From Archangium primigenium (GTDB taxonomy: Bacteria > Myxococcota > Myxococcia > Myxococcales > Myxococcaceae), in contig NZ_JADWYI010000001.1 in NCBI RefSeq assembly GCF_016904885.1, positions 1,364,001 through 1,428,000 on the forward strand: a stretch of DNA of 64,000 nucleotides. Direction: 5' to 3'. A program made the translations under genes and the position numbers. Shown here piece by piece: positions 3,341 through 8,666 of the stretch. Numbering within the stretch: position 1 is the first letter of the stretch; every line of letters begins with the position of its first letter. The notes beneath the pieces are model-generated. The model worked only from the letters and a program-made list of their open reading frames with translations, was not told the origin of the DNA and did no database searches.

Positions 3341-6300
3341 TTGATCCGACATCTCGAAAGTACCCTGAGGCGCGTCCTCATGGCCGCGCTGGTGGTGGGC
3401 GTGGGCCTGGGAGTGTCCTCCGCCCTGGCGCAACAGAACACGTCTGTGTTGACCGGCACCGTGTTCAACGCCGAGACGAAGAAACCCGTTCCGGACGTGG
3501 TGGTGACCGCGACCTCGCCCAGCGTCCAGGGTGAGCAGCTCGCCGTCACCGATGCCTCGGGCCTCTACCGGATCCCGCAGCTGCCTCCCGGCACCTATAC
3601 GCTGCGCTTCGAGAGCGAGGGGTTCAAACCCTTCCAGCGCACGGACGTGGCCCTGCGCCTCAACCGCACCATCCGGCTCAACGCGGAGCTGCTGCCCGAG
3701 GGCTTCAACGAGGAGATCCAGGTCGCGGGCGTGCCGCCGTCCGTGGACGTGGGCTCCACCCGCACGGGCGTGAGCGTGGACAAGGATCTCATCAACCGCC
3801 TGGCCACGGTGCGCCCCGGCTCCAAGGGCAGCGCGTCGCGCTCCTTCGAGAGCCTGGCGGACTTCGCCCCCACGGCCACCACGGATGCGTACGGCGTGTC
3901 GCTCAATGGCACGACCTCGCCGGAGAACGGCTTCCAGGTGGACGGTCTGTCCACGGGCAACCCGGCGCTCGGCACCCTCGGCACGCCGCTGTCGGTGGAG
4001 TTCATCCAGGAGGTGAACATCATCACCGGTGGCTTCCTGCCCGAGTACGGGCGCTCCACGGGCGGCGTGCTGACGGCCGTCACCAAGTCCGGCTCCAACG
4101 AGTTCCACGGCTCGGTGTTCGGCAACCTGACGCCGGGCGCCTTCGAGGGCACTCCCACGCGCGTGCTGAGCCAGGGCAGCGTCATCACCACCACCCAGCG
4201 GCTGTGGAACCTGGGGGACTTCGGCGGCACGCTCGGCGGCCCGCTCGTGAAGGACAAGCTGTGGTTCTTCGCCGGCGTGGCCCCGTCCTTCACCCGCCGC
4301 GCGCTCGACCGCAACCTCAACGCCTTCGTGCTGGGCGAGGACGGCCGGCCCGTCAAGGACGCCAACGGCTTCTCCCAGACGGAGTCCATCGACGGCACCT
4401 TCCGGCGCTACTTCGCCGACCAGCGCTCGCTGCAGTACATCGGCAAGCTCACCTGGCAGGTGCACCCCGACCACGGCCTCACCCTGTCGGTGACGGGCAC
4501 GCCGTCCGCCTCGGGAGGCAACGGCCGCTTCGGCTACAACATCGACAGCGGGCTCATCGAGACGGACACCCTCAACGGCCGCTACGAGGCGCTCGCCCAC
4601 CGCTACAACCAGAGCGCGCGCGACATCGCCCTCAAGCTGTCCTCCTCGTTCCTGGACAAGCGCGTGCTGCTGGACGTGAACGCGGGCTGGCACCACCAGA
4701 CGGACGACACGCTGCCCGTGGACGGCAGCGCCCTGGGCAGCAGCGCGGGCCTGGCGGGCGTCGCCCAGTTCAACATGCGCCGCACCGGCACCGCCGCCGA
4801 CCCGCGCTACTACTCCATCAACGACTTCGAGGTGCTGCCGGACCCGTCCGTGTGTGACCCCGCCGGCACGCGCAACGCCGTGCGCTGCCCCGTGGCGAGC
4901 TACCTGCTCGGCGGCCCCGGCTTCCTGCTGGACCGCACCGTGGACCGCTACCAGGCCAACGTCGTGGGCACCTACCTGCTCAACGCGCTCGGCCACCACG
5001 TCATCAAGGCGGGCGCCGACGTGGAGATCATGACCAACGTGGACACGCGCGCCTACTCCGGCGGCGTGCTCTACAACGAGGCGGTGGACGGCAACTCCTT
5101 CGTGGACTTCCGCTCCTTCGGCTACCTCACCGGGCCGGACCAGGCCGTCTACCAGGCGTTCGTGCCCACCTCCACCCGGGCCAACGCCGTGGGCGCCTTC
5201 CTCCAGGACAGCTGGAGCATCCTCGACCGCGTCACGCTCAACGCCGGCCTGCGCTACGACACGCAGACGGTGGTGGGCACGGGCGGCAACGTGGCGTTCG
5301 AGCTGCCCAACCAGATCTCCCCGCGCGTGGGCCTCGTCTACGACTTCACCCGCACGGGCCGCTCCAAGCTGTTCGCCAGCTACGCGCGCTACTACCAGAA
5401 CTCGGTGCTGGCCATGGTCAACTCCCAGTTCTCCAACATCACCCGCCTGACGGCCACGCGCAGCCGCGCGCCCATCAACGGCGGCCCCGGGTGTGATCCG
5501 CTCACCCAGTCCGCGCCCTACACCGAGTGCCGCGACCCGGCGAACATCCCCGTGCCGGCCGGCACCAGCACGGGCATCAGCCGCCAGTACACGCAGACCT
5601 TCGCCATCAACAGCCCGGTGGATCCCTCGCTCAGGCCGCAGTCCTCCAACGAGCTCGTCCTGGGCGGCGAGTACGAGGTGCTCCCGCGCGCGACGCTGGG
5701 CGTCAACTACACCCGCCGCACGATGAACGACGTCATCGAGGACATGTCCATCAACGAGACGACCAACTACTTCATCGGCAACCCGGGCCGGGGCATCGGC
5801 GCGGCGTTCCCCAAGGCCGTGCGCGACTACGACGCGGTGGCCGTCTACCTGAACAAGGCGTTCGCGGACCTGTGGCTCGCACAGGTGAGCTACACGTACT
5901 CGTACCTGCGCGGCAACTACTCGGGCCTCTACCGCCCGGACAACAACCAGCTCGCCCCCAACGTCACCTCCGACTTCGACCTCATCGGGATGATGGAGAA
6001 CAAGTCCGGCGTGCTGCCCCTGGACCGCACCCACAACATCAAGGTGTTCGGCTCGCGCGAGTTCGTCATCGACTCCAACACCAGCCTGGACCTGGGCCTG
6101 TCCTACCGGGGCAACTCCGGCACGCCGCTCAACGTGACGGGCTCGCACTACATCTACGGCAGCGGCTTCACCTTCATCCTGCCGCGCGGCAGCGGCGGGC
6201 GGCTGCCCTGGGTGCACGGCGTGGACGCGCACCTGGGCGTCAACCGCAAGCTGGGCCGGGGCCTCTTGGCCACCGTCACCCTGGACGCCTTCAACATGTT

Positions 6301-6499
6301 CAACTTCCAGGCCGTCACCAGTCAGGACCAGGTCTACACGCTGGACAACATCGACGCGCTCGTGGGTGGCACGCTCGCGGACCTGCCGGACGTGAAGAAC
6401 CGCAACGGCCAGTCGCCCGCGCTCAACCCCAACTACCAGAAGCCCCTGTCCTACCAGCCGCCGCGCAGCATCCGCATCGGCGCGCGCGTCTCGTTCTGA
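3341..6499 (+). CDS. TonB-dependent receptor, Oar-like, with carboxypeptidase-regulatory-like domain
   Basis: A 1052-residue outer-membrane receptor. A signal peptide (1-30, Arg-Arg n-region, cleavage after ALA) precedes a carboxypeptidase regulatory-like Ig fold (about 36-115, with TDASGLYRIPQLPPGTYTL), a plug domain (about 125-260, containing NGTTSPENGFQVDGLSTG) and a long beta-barrel ending in the aromatic terminus RIGARVSF. No periplasmic TonB box was identified. The TTG start is chosen because GAGGGG lies 8 bases upstream (3327-3332) and because it supplies the n-region of the signal peptide. The architecture matches the Oar family of myxobacteria, which has many paralogues; in Myxococcus xanthus Oar itself is needed for development and protease secretion. 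The substrate here is unknown. A small lipoprotein follows 18 bases downstream. Confidence 0.88.
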   Translation: MIRHLESTLRRVLMAALVVGVGLGVSSALAQQNTSVLTGTVFNAETKKPVPDVVVTATSPSVQGEQLAVTDASGLYRIPQLPPGTYTLRFESEGFKPFQRTDVALRLNRTIRLNAELLPEGFNEEIQVAGVPPSVDVGSTRTGVSVDKDLINRLATVRPGSKGSASRSFESLADFAPTATTDAYGVSLNGTTSPENGFQVDGLSTGNPALGTLGTPLSVEFIQEVNIITGGFLPEYGRSTGGVLTAVTKSGSNEFHGSVFGNLTPGAFEGTPTRVLSQGSVITTTQRLWNLGDFGGTLGGPLVKDKLWFFAGVAPSFTRRALDRNLNAFVLGEDGRPVKDANGFSQTESIDGTFRRYFADQRSLQYIGKLTWQVHPDHGLTLSVTGTPSASGGNGRFGYNIDSGLIETDTLNGRYEALAHRYNQSARDIALKLSSSFLDKRVLLDVNAGWHHQTDDTLPVDGSALGSSAGLAGVAQFNMRRTGTAADPRYYSINDFEVLPDPSVCDPAGTRNAVRCPVASYLLGGPGFLLDRTVDRYQANVVGTYLLNALGHHVIKAGADVEIMTNVDTRAYSGGVLYNEAVDGNSFVDFRSFGYLTGPDQAVYQAFVPTSTRANAVGAFLQDSWSILDRVTLNAGLRYDTQTVVGTGGNVAFELPNQISPRVGLVYDFTRTGRSKLFASYARYYQNSVLAMVNSQFSNITRLTATRSRAPINGGPGCDPLTQSAPYTECRDPANIPVPAGTSTGISRQYTQTFAINSPVDPSLRPQSSNELVLGGEYEVLPRATLGVNYTRRTMNDVIEDMSINETTNYFIGNPGRGIGAAFPKAVRDYDAVAVYLNKAFADLWLAQVSYTYSYLRGNYSGLYRPDNNQLAPNVTSDFDLIGMMENKSGVLPLDRTHNIKVFGSREFVIDSNTSLDLGLSYRGNSGTPLNVTGSHYIYGSGFTFILPRGSGGRLPWVHGVDAHLGVNRKLGRGLLATVTLDAFNMFNFQAVTSQDQVYTLDNIDALVGGTLADLPDVKNRNGQSPALNPNYQKPLSYQPPRSIRIGARVSF

Positions 6500-6517: not shown

Positions 6518-7183
6518 ATGAAGACCCAACGAATCCTCACGTGGACGCTCCCCCTGGGCCTGGCGACCCTGCTGGCCGCCTGCGGCGCCGAGCAACCGCC
6601 TCCCCAGTGCACCGTGGGCCGCGGTGAGCATGCCGTGCGCTTCACGCTCAAGTCGGGCTCGGGCGTGTGCGCGCAGAAGAAGGCGGAGATCGTCGGCGCG
6701 CAGGCCTTCCGTGTCCCCGGCTCGGGCGAGCCGCCCACCCTGGCGCTCAAGCCCGCCTTCCTGCTCGCGGGCGCGGAGCCGGCGGCGTCCATCACCTCCT
6801 CGGGCGCCTTCACCACCGAGTACCCCGTGGACAACGTGTGCGAGGTGCCCTCGATGTCCGCGGCGCGGCAGACCAATGCCGGCACGACGCTGAGCTATGC
6901 GTGGAGCGGCTTGCGCATCCAGGGCCAGGCGGCCATCCCCGGCACGCAGTGGGTGGGCGAGCTGCGCTACACGGAAGGCGACTGCACGGCCACCTACGAG
7001 GCCGTGGGCGTGTTCCCCGCCATCCGGTGCGTGCGCACGGAGAACGGCGCCGAGGTGCGCGACCCGGCCATCTGCAAGCAGGCGCGCGCGGGCTCGTCGC
7101 TGGATCCCGCGTTCGCCATCGTCTGCGAGGAGAGCACGAACCTGTGCGTGCTGGACGGCCAGCCGCCCGCGCTGAAGCCCTGA
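6518..7183 (+). CDS. Secreted lipoprotein paired with the TonB-dependent receptor
   Basis: A 221-residue protein of unknown function. The N-terminus is a lipoprotein signal peptide with lipobox LAAC (Cys22). The mature part has several cysteines spread along it (for example PPQCTVG, SGVCAQ, DNVCEV, EGDCTA, AIRCVR, ICKQ, IVCEE, NLCVL), suggesting disulfides in the periplasm or at the cell surface. It begins 18 bases after the receptor stop and is surely cotranscribed with it, so an accessory role such as ligand capture for the receptor is likely but inferred. No enzymatic motif is visible. Confidence 0.75.
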   Translation: MKTQRILTWTLPLGLATLLAACGAEQPPPQCTVGRGEHAVRFTLKSGSGVCAQKKAEIVGAQAFRVPGSGEPPTLALKPAFLLAGAEPAASITSSGAFTTEYPVDNVCEVPSMSAARQTNAGTTLSYAWSGLRIQGQAAIPGTQWVGELRYTEGDCTATYEAVGVFPAIRCVRTENGAEVRDPAICKQARAGSSLDPAFAIVCEESTNLCVLDGQPPALKP

Positions 7184-7184
7184 G

Positions 7185-7868
7185 TCACTCCCGGGGGCGG
7201 TGCTCGCTCGGGGCGCCGCCCTCGCCCAGGCGACAGGTGAGGGGCAGGGACAAGCCCACCTCCTCCAGCGAGTGCGTCGTCTGCTCCACGGCGCCGGCGG
7301 GCACGCACTCCACCACGGTGAGCGGCACCCCGGCCGAGCCCAGGGCCGCCGCCGTCTCGCGCACCCGGGCGACGTAGCGGCGCAGCAGTTCGTCGCGGTG
7401 GGCCTCGGGTCGGGCCACGAGGGCCCGCGCGGCGCCGAAGCTGAATCGCGGCAGCTTGCGTGACTGGCGGCTGTCCCCCTCGGCCTCCTGGCAGGCGCGC
7501 GTCAGGGCGCCCAGGCGCGCGGCGCGCTCCCAGAAGTCATGCTCCGCGGCGAGCGGCAGCTCCAGCCAGCCCTCGAGCGTGACCAGGTGGGTGTCGCTCT
7601 CGGTGAGCGCCAGCTTCTTGGAGCCGCCGCCCCGGTCGAAGCGCAGGTCCTGCGGCCGGAAGCTCACCTCGGTGCCGCTCCGTTCCTGGACGCGCCGCCG
7701 CAACTGCTCGCACGCTTGACGCAGCGAGGCGAGCAGGGGAGCCGCCTCGTCGGCCTCGAGCGAGGCCGAAAGGGGCACGCGGAGGACATCCGGCTTCACG
7801 GTGAGTTCGGCCCGGAGCGGCGGCGACTCGCGGACGGGAGTCGCGTATTTTTCACTGTTAAAGGACAT
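7185..7868 (-). CDS. Protein of unknown function, cytoplasmic member of a divergent paralogous pair
   Basis: A 227-residue protein I do not recognise. It has no signal peptide or membrane segment. Its sequence aligns by eye with the lipoprotein encoded divergently at 7950-8666: LTVKPDVLRVPL versus MTVRPDVLLVAF near the start, DFWERAARLGALTRA versus DYWGREMLVAALARV in the middle, and EVGLSLPLTCRLG versus EVSLSLAGVSCRLG at the C-terminus. The two genes are therefore ancient duplicates whose products differ in cell location. The spacing and the repeated EEAL/LRQA helices recall SIMPL/BP26-type folds (DUF541), but this is only a guess. The start codons of the pair are separated by about 80 bases, which must hold both promoters. 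Confidence 0.7.
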   Translation of the reverse strand: MSFNSEKYATPVRESPPLRAELTVKPDVLRVPLSASLEADEAAPLLASLRQACEQLRRRVQERSGTEVSFRPQDLRFDRGGGSKKLALTESDTHLVTLEGWLELPLAAEHDFWERAARLGALTRACQEAEGDSRQSRKLPRFSFGAARALVARPEAHRDELLRRYVARVRETAAALGSAGVPLTVVECVPAGAVEQTTHSLEEVGLSLPLTCRLGEGGAPSEHRPRE

Positions 7869-7949
7869 GGCGGACGGAGAGCCTATCCGGTACCACTCCA
7901 GACGGCATCGGCCCCGGGGGACCTCCGGGCCCTCGTCGGAAAGCGCGCG

Positions 7950-8666
7950 ATGAAACGACGTCCTCTAGTCTGGTCCGCTTGTGGCGTACTGCTCTGCCTG
8001 TGGGTCTCGTGTGGCCGCTCGTCCTCCTCGGAGGCGCATGCCGGGGGCTCGCGGGGTGCCTACGCGGCCGGGGAGCCGACGCTGCCCGAGGGCATGACGG
8101 TGCGGCCAGACGTGCTGCTCGTGGCCTTCACGCTTCGCCAGGAGGCGGAGTCCCTGGAGGAGGCCCTGCCCCGGCTCAAGCAGGCGGCCGAGCACTACGG
8201 CGCGGCGGCGAAGGGGGCGAGCCCCGCGGGGGCGGTGGTGCGCATGGGCGAGCTGGAGTGGGTGGCGCGCAAGGTGGGCTACAGCGACGTGGTGGCGCAC
8301 GGCGTGCTGGAGGTGGCGATGCCCGAGTCGCTGGACTACTGGGGCCGGGAGATGCTGGTGGCGGCCCTGGCGCGCGTGGCCGACGGCGAGGTGAGCCAGG
8401 CGGAGCGGGCCAACGCGGGGCTGATCGTGGCGTTCAGCCATCCCCGCGCGCGATTGAAGGACCCGGAGCACTACCGCGAAGCGCTCATCCAGCAGTGGGC
8501 GCGGCGCACCCGGACGTTCATCAGCCAGGTGCAGTCCGAGCGCGCGCCGCTGGAGCTCATCGGGTGCGAGCCTCCCGTGGAGGTGAAGCAGCAGCCCCTG
8601 TCCGTCAACGAGGTGTCGCTGTCGCTGGCGGGCGTGAGCTGCCGCCTGGGTCTGGCCCAGCCCTGA
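7950..8666 (+). CDS. Lipoprotein of unknown function, secreted member of a divergent paralogous pair
   Basis: A 238-residue protein. The ATG at 7950 is chosen because it begins a lipoprotein-like signal sequence (MKRRPLVWSACGVLL) ending at WVSC (Cys21); the residue at -3 is Trp, an unusual lipobox. The mature part matches the neighbouring leftward protein at 7185-7868 along most of its length, including the C-terminal EVSLSLAGVSCRLG. No catalytic motif is visible. Having one lipidated and one apparently cytoplasmic copy back to back suggests partners or compartment-specific versions of one binding function. Nothing in the sequence names the ligand. Confidence 0.7.
   Translation: MKRRPLVWSACGVLLCLWVSCGRSSSSEAHAGGSRGAYAAGEPTLPEGMTVRPDVLLVAFTLRQEAESLEEALPRLKQAAEHYGAAAKGASPAGAVVRMGELEWVARKVGYSDVVAHGVLEVAMPESLDYWGREMLVAALARVADGEVSQAERANAGLIVAFSHPRARLKDPEHYREALIQQWARRTRTFISQVQSERAPLELIGCEPPVEVKQQPLSVNEVSLSLAGVSCRLGLAQP

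Follow-up and report, generated by a model that had tools for sequence, protein, structure and literature searches.

The window analyzed here is a stretch of 64,000 nucleotides of the Archangium primigenium genome (contig NZ_JADWYI010000001.1, positions 1,364,001 to 1,428,000 of the forward strand), in which two genes, denoted P1 and P2, are arranged divergently and encode proteins resembling the SIMPL (DUF541) superfamily. The gene order around them is TonB receptor, small lipoprotein, P1, P2, MBL (a metallo-beta-lactamase-fold gene), LMF1 (an LMF1-domain gene) and a gene that, by eye, looks like an acyltransferase. The features that matter for the pair are the following, in window coordinates.

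3341-6499: outer-membrane (TonB) receptor with a carboxypeptidase-regulatory-like domain
6518-7183: small lipoprotein without a Pfam match
7868..7185, minus strand: P1, SIMPL-like protein of 227 amino acids, ATG-to-stop ORF, no signal peptide, predicted to be cytoplasmic
7869..7949, no strand assigned: divergent intergenic region, 81 bp between the P1 and P2 start codons, covered by a three-way DNA alignment
7880-7885, minus strand: TAGGCT in the P1-side leader, 12-17 nt before the P1 ATG
7950..8666, plus strand: P2, SIMPL-like lipoprotein of 238 amino acids, complete ORF, Cys21 predicted to be lipidated

The coordinates and the divergent arrangement are those given in a sequence-only reading of this DNA, both ORFs are complete, and the paralogy claimed there holds. 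A single BLASTP comparison aligns 204 residues of P1 and P2 with 29% identity and a score of 65.5 bits (E 1e-17), and searches of the whole 9.49 Mb genome with P1 and with P2 recover the query itself and the partner (E 6.8e-13 and 6.3e-13), with no third paralogue at E 0.001. A profile of the family, compared to the same genome with E up to 1, finds P1 and P2 and no further match. The shared motifs pointed out in the earlier reading are present in both proteins, namely, PDVL, DFWERAARLGALTRA / DYWGREMLVAALARV and EVGLSLPLTCRLG / EVSLSLAGVSCRLG. Given the BLASTP E value and the reciprocal matches in the genome, chance similarity between P1 and P2 was rejected.

The contrast between a signal-less P1 and a P2 with a lipoprotein signal was also borne out. 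The best 15-residue Kyte-Doolittle mean within the first 45 residues is 0.56 in P1 and 2.05 in P2, and no ATG, GTG or TTG codon precedes the P1 ATG at 7868 in frame as far back as the nearest stop, so that an overlooked N-terminal signal is unlikely; with neither an upstream start codon nor a hydrophobic N-terminus, this possibility was rejected. The P1-side leader (7869-7890, minus strand) is retained in all 6 P1 genes compared and includes TAGGCT, 12-17 nt upstream of the start codon; this hexamer may be a -10 element, in which case the transcript would be nearly leaderless. An origin of P1 and P2 from phages or defence systems was considered and rejected: no family among the PADLOC-DB models matches either protein with E up to 1, the PHROGs matches have E values no better than 0.35 and 0.12, and none of the 68 pattern matches in viral contigs is a relative.

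The family is narrowly distributed. Among 145 genomes of the order, searched at E 0.001, P1 has matches in 16 and P2 in 17, counts that include cross-matches between subgroups. Two of the P2 matches, in G058 and G022 (E 7e-4 and 1e-3), are partial, involve what by eye look like other proteins and are not recovered by the family profile; they were dropped before alignment. The alignment comprises 22 members from 17 genomes of the order. Across 195 genomes of the phylum, with scoring confined to the 14 best candidates from a first look at each genome, the family profile matches 17, with no match outside the order. A scan of a named genome collection with the lipoprotein alignment yielded 4 loci from 94 pattern matches, all of them myxobacterial, in what is not a census, relatives known from the order-wide search being missed.

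When genomes are classified by signal type and tree position, the adjacent pair is found in 4 of the 195, that is, in A. primigenium and in three other genomes (G043, G044 and G046), where it is likewise divergent, so that the pair does extend beyond this strain. Elsewhere, P1 and the lipoprotein are both present but apart (G048), P1 occurs without a lipoprotein-type gene (G075), or the lipoprotein occurs without P1 (G045, G055, G056, G082 and G083); two genomes (G091 and G137) have a type with a plain signal peptide alone, and four (G051, G052, G053 and G093) have another signal-less type alone, denoted cytX (loci L018, L019, L036 and L037). The cytX proteins share with P1 and P2 the match to the family profile and the FWxR motif, and are signal-less, but lack a pair of C-terminal cysteines discussed below; with one family match per genome, no lipoprotein paralogue was found alongside them.

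The complete gene order of the window is conserved in G043. In G044 and G046, the order P1, P2, MBL, LMF1, acyltransferase is retained, and the TonB receptor and small-lipoprotein genes were not found within 5.5 and 6.5 kb, respectively, beyond P1. The start codons of P1 and P2 are 59-86 bp apart in the four pair-bearing genomes. In three genomes of the same genus (G073, G074 and G075), MBL comes immediately after the small lipoprotein gene, with a gap of ~80-90 bp, and no match to P1 or P2 was detected at this syntenic site at E 1e-6; the P1 gene of G075 lies elsewhere. At the same site in these genomes (L130, L131 and L129, respectively), a G+C-rich hairpin followed by T-rich sequence can be seen by eye, resembling a terminator between convergent genes, here the small lipoprotein and MBL. 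The receptor and the small lipoprotein occur together in G043, G045, G048, G073, G074 and G075.

Other genomes show partial versions of the locus. G048 has P1 at a site of the window type and the lipoprotein elsewhere, and in G055 and G083 the lipoprotein gene adjoins MBL without P1. Between the small lipoprotein and either P1 or MBL, G048 (L057, 2030-5800) and G045 (L127, 5340-9140) carry ~3.8 kb of extra genes, including a sensor-kinase-like gene and, called in G048 only, a response-regulator-like gene (both by eye); thus, insertions seem to be tolerated at this junction. At five off-site loci (L058, L059, L060, L063 and L066), which contain single-gene or signal-peptide relatives, no conserved third partner was seen, as judged by eye from crude gene calls. 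The exception among the off-site loci is formed by G045 and G048, whose lipoprotein genes have common neighbours.

The N-terminus of P2, MKRRPLVWSACGVLLCLWVSCGRSS, as read from its sequence and hydrophobicity, consists of a positive n-region, a hydrophobic core and a [GAS]C cleavage site. The lipobox is L-W-V-S-C, with the Trp at -3 that had drawn attention in the sequence-only reading. Its Leu, Trp, Ser and Cys are invariant in all 10 lipoprotein-type rows of the alignment, and the Trp falls at -3 in 6 of these and, through one extra residue, at -4 in 4, such that the residue at -3 is Trp in 6, Thr in 3 and Ile in 1, and in none is it the Leu of the lipobox consensus given in PMC3222651. A rough, uncurated filter for lipobox-like N-termini, applied to 361 kb of myxobacterial DNA from partly redundant loci, returned 28 candidates, 6 of them from the P1/P2 family, and missed P2 of the window itself; the 22 candidates outside the family have Leu at -3 in 16 cases and Trp in none. 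Because Trp at -3 departs from the consensus, P2 could be processed poorly. In M. xanthus lipoproteins, according to PMC3222651, Lys at +2 is associated with the inner membrane and Ala at +7 with the extracellular matrix. P2 has neither, with Gly at +2 and Ser at +7; hence, it most likely is an outer-membrane lipoprotein facing the periplasm.

The first of the two C-terminal cysteines is present in all 18 aligned P1, lipoprotein and signal-peptide rows and the second in 17, the exception being P1 of G075, and both are missing in all four cytX rows. In P2, the pair, Cys206 and Cys231, likely forms a disulfide. This pattern of the Cys pair, shared by P1 with the exported types and not with cytX, fits, without proving, the derivation of P1 from an exported ancestor. 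Retention of both cysteines in 5 of 6 P1 proteins, together with their absence in cytX, could also be taken to mean that P1 is itself exported without a classical signal, so that both proteins act together in the envelope and the Cys pair of P1 forms a disulfide as well. We consider this very unlikely in view of the features of the P1 N-terminus described above, namely, no hydrophobic segment and no upstream start codon in the window, and of the loss of the second Cys in G075.

SIMPL proteins are widespread and poorly understood, and the bacterial members usually are exported by a signal peptide. The relationship of P1 and P2 to these proteins, traceable in Pfam, profile and structure matches, was overlooked when the pair was described as not a familiar system. 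Neither protein contains a Pfam domain above cut-off: P1 matches SIMPL (DUF541, PF04402) with 15.5 bits (E 0.021), below the curated cut-off of 25.2 bits, and P2 has no Pfam match with E up to 10. Weak matches to SIMPL (E up to 1, best E 2.4e-4) were obtained for 12 of the 22 family members. In single scans of 8 members, 6 match SIMPL at E up to 0.1 with 14.5-21.8 bits, again below the cut-off, and the remaining 2 have no SIMPL match up to that E value; the top score (21.8 bits, E 2.4e-4) belongs to a cytX protein, L036. When the family profile was run against PDB sequences, Brucella BP26 (4hvz) was the best match (E 0.012; next, 0.46), and profile-profile comparison by hhalign to SIMPL sequences chosen from 30 myxobacterial loci, 15 in number, gave E 8.1e-5 and a probability of 61% over 130 columns.

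In the profile alignment, two elements of the family are in register with the SIMPL sequences, the N-terminal strand-helix unit "(R/K)PD..v..s...E" and the helix "dPE..R..L......RAR". Compared with the closest known proteins of the superfamily, Brucella BP26, the SIMPL-like protein 7c50 of Campylobacter and YggE of E. coli, the predicted fold and the length are similar, and P2, judged by its sequence, would be exported in keeping with the habit of bacterial members. The differences are the sub-threshold scores of the family, its [DP][FY]WxR signature and C-terminal Cys pair, the predicted lipid anchor that replaces a plain signal peptide in P2, and the absence of any signal in P1. The genome of A. 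primigenium also encodes a canonical SIMPL protein of the same superfamily (L044; G000:C1:1121364-1121978), at another locus outside the window. It is the only protein of this genome that matches PF04402 above the cut-off, scoring 181 bits compared to 15.5 for P1 and no match for P2, and it lacks both the signature and the Cys pair. We conclude that P1 and P2 are remote relatives of SIMPL and not members of PF04402 as curated. The SIMPL family itself is present in 8 of 14 control genomes, and a search of open-licence literature for the SIMPL domain in myxobacteria found no paper.

Structure prediction leads in the same direction. The AlphaFold2 models, built on alignments of 8 rows only, have a mean pLDDT of 82.4 for P1 and 78.4 for P2, with residues 1-43 of P2 below 50. 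In Foldseek, the two top-ranked matches of P1 are SIMPL proteins, 7c50 from Campylobacter (E 5.1e-5) and 4hvz (E 5.1e-4); for P2, 7c50 is at rank 10, behind nine amidase/peptidase-type chains, and 4hvz is absent from the best 50 matches listed. The Foldseek TM-scores of P1 and P2 to SIMPL proteins are modest (0.36-0.48, with rmsd of 6.6-9.1). VIA-align, in which 7c50 and 4hvz again head the list for P1, superimposes P1 on 7c50 over 172 residues (Z 9.5, rmsd 6.4) and on 4hvz over 175 (Z 9.1, rmsd 4.3), compared to 75-107 residues for the other 48 matches listed, and P2 on 7c50, at rank 1, over 165 residues (Z 9.5, rmsd 5.8) and on 4hvz, at rank 28, over 168 (Z 8.4, rmsd 4.2), with many ferredoxin-like domains, aligned over 110 residues at most, within 1 Z unit of 7c50; Z values of 8-9.5 barely exceed the range that the structure-alignment tool calls common. 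Among the solved structures listed, the two SIMPL proteins alone align over most of the P1 or P2 model. Ribosomal S10, M20-peptidase/amidase, eIF2-alpha and ACT domains were not accepted as relatives because these matches are short (up to 107 residues for P1 and 110 for P2) and involve mostly the N-terminal ferredoxin-like part. A SIMPL-type fold of P1 and P2 is, on the strength of the models, well supported.

The models of P1 and P2 also resemble each other, with an identical order of strands and helices, and do not represent unrelated folds. An identity of merely ~29% might by itself suggest two different folds with motifs shared by chance, but the BLASTP E value of 1e-17, the alignment of all 22 rows as a single family with a common signature and the like order of predicted elements make this hardly conceivable.

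Of the seven genes of the locus that were compared, P1 and P2 show the lowest conservation. Identity to the three pair-bearing relatives is 56-57% for P1 and 50-53% for P2, compared to 66-69% for LMF1, 74% for MBL and 76-77% for the acyltransferase-like gene; the small lipoprotein and the TonB receptor, compared with G043 only, are at 67% and 77%, respectively. The NG86 dN/dS values among three Archangium genomes are 0.20-0.25 for P1 and 0.35-0.48 for P2, and reach 0.63 and 0.92, respectively, in more distant comparisons; in DNA so rich in G+C, these values are rough and serve only as a sign that neither gene is in decay. Across genera, the [DP][FY]WxR signature, the lipobox and the open frames are intact, as is the Cys pair in all but one P1, indicating that both genes are under selection.

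In the phylogenetic tree, P1 and the lipoproteins form separate clades, with support of 96/100 and 92/91, respectively, when all columns are used and of 97/91 and 89/93 when only the columns of the mature protein are included. The two trees disagree on the point at which the signal-peptide rows join, where two long branches meet; both rows from the window are on long branches as well. In the tree, the split between P1 and the lipoproteins is placed before the divergence of the lipoproteins of several genera, and so lends no support to a recent back-to-back duplication; the alternative topology expected from such a duplication, with P1 grouped with the lipoproteins of the pair-bearing genomes, is just not rejected (p-AU 0.059). 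A single clade of P1 and cytX is not rejected either (p-AU 0.56), leaving room for the signal to have been lost once, in an old cytoplasmic line.

These observations bear on whether the two genes function together. They could be ordinary lineage-specific paralogues with independent roles, products of an old duplication that were kept in one locus and drift under weak constraint. The patchy presence of the genes, the absence of the pair from the syntenic site in three genomes of the same genus, the fast divergence with the dN/dS values given above, and the lack of a conserved partner at the five off-site loci all speak for this possibility, which we consider a serious one, though less likely than the reading favored below; the elements preserved across genera, from the open frames to the [DP][FY]WxR signature, argue against it because they point to selection on both genes. 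The two-compartment sensing or binding pair proposed in the sequence-only reading could take the form of a lipoprotein that senses or binds a ligand in the envelope and a P1 that binds the same ligand, or one of the same class, inside the cell. Such coupling would be compatible with the closely spaced divergent starts in four genomes, with the presence of a lipoprotein-type gene in 5 of the 6 genomes that have P1, and with the joint position of P1 and P2 as the least conserved genes of the locus (50-57% identity compared to 66-69% and 74-77% for the neighbours). However, the two genes often occur without each other, the lipoprotein without P1 in five genomes, P1 without the lipoprotein in one and both apart in one, which weakens the proposal, and with the pair present in 4 of 195 genomes and absent at three same-genus sites, this is no obligate two-compartment system. 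There is, furthermore, neither a membrane-spanning link nor a signalling domain, no Pfam domain scores above cut-off, and no ligand-binding residue is known. Overall, the coupled sensing pair appears unlikely.

The interpretation that we favor, with about even confidence, is that a small myxobacterial family that evolves fast and includes P1 and P2 would be a remote branch of the SIMPL/DUF541 superfamily, P2 being an envelope lipoprotein and P1 its cytoplasmic paralogue, both serving as self-assembling scaffolds. After export, P2 would be anchored at the outer membrane by a lipid on Cys21, and P1, without a signal, would work in the cytoplasm while retaining the Cys pair of the exported forms. 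Both genes might be expressed from a common, putative promoter region between them. Each protein may self-assemble in the manner of BP26, a barrel-like homohexadecamer according to PMC6884894; by this analogy, P2 probably is a protein that self-assembles and either protects the envelope or binds something there, with P1 as the equivalent in the cytoplasm. More tentatively, and by analogy with the periplasmic YggE of E. coli, for which PMC5118699 reports an inferred protection against oxidative stress, each might be a scaffold that protects or binds components of the compartment in which it resides when the envelope is stressed or oxidative stress sets in.

In a bolder version that we regard as still less probable than the coupled sensing pair, P1 and P2 would form matched SIMPL-like assemblies in the cytoplasm and anchored in the outer membrane. 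The two would co-evolve, be expressed from a single divergent promoter region and recognize, on either side of the inner membrane, ligands or damaged components of one class. If true, a family that is otherwise periplasmic would here have been extended to two compartments. As it stands, the pair seems to be an unusual variant of a known fold, specific to this lineage, and not a new system. Nevertheless, a lipid-anchored form beside a signal-less paralogue raises the question of the role of the SIMPL fold and of its dependence on the envelope, P2 would test the tolerance of myxobacterial lipoprotein processing for Trp at -3, and two adjacent genes that are naturally missing from the same site in sister genomes offer a simple genetic setting.
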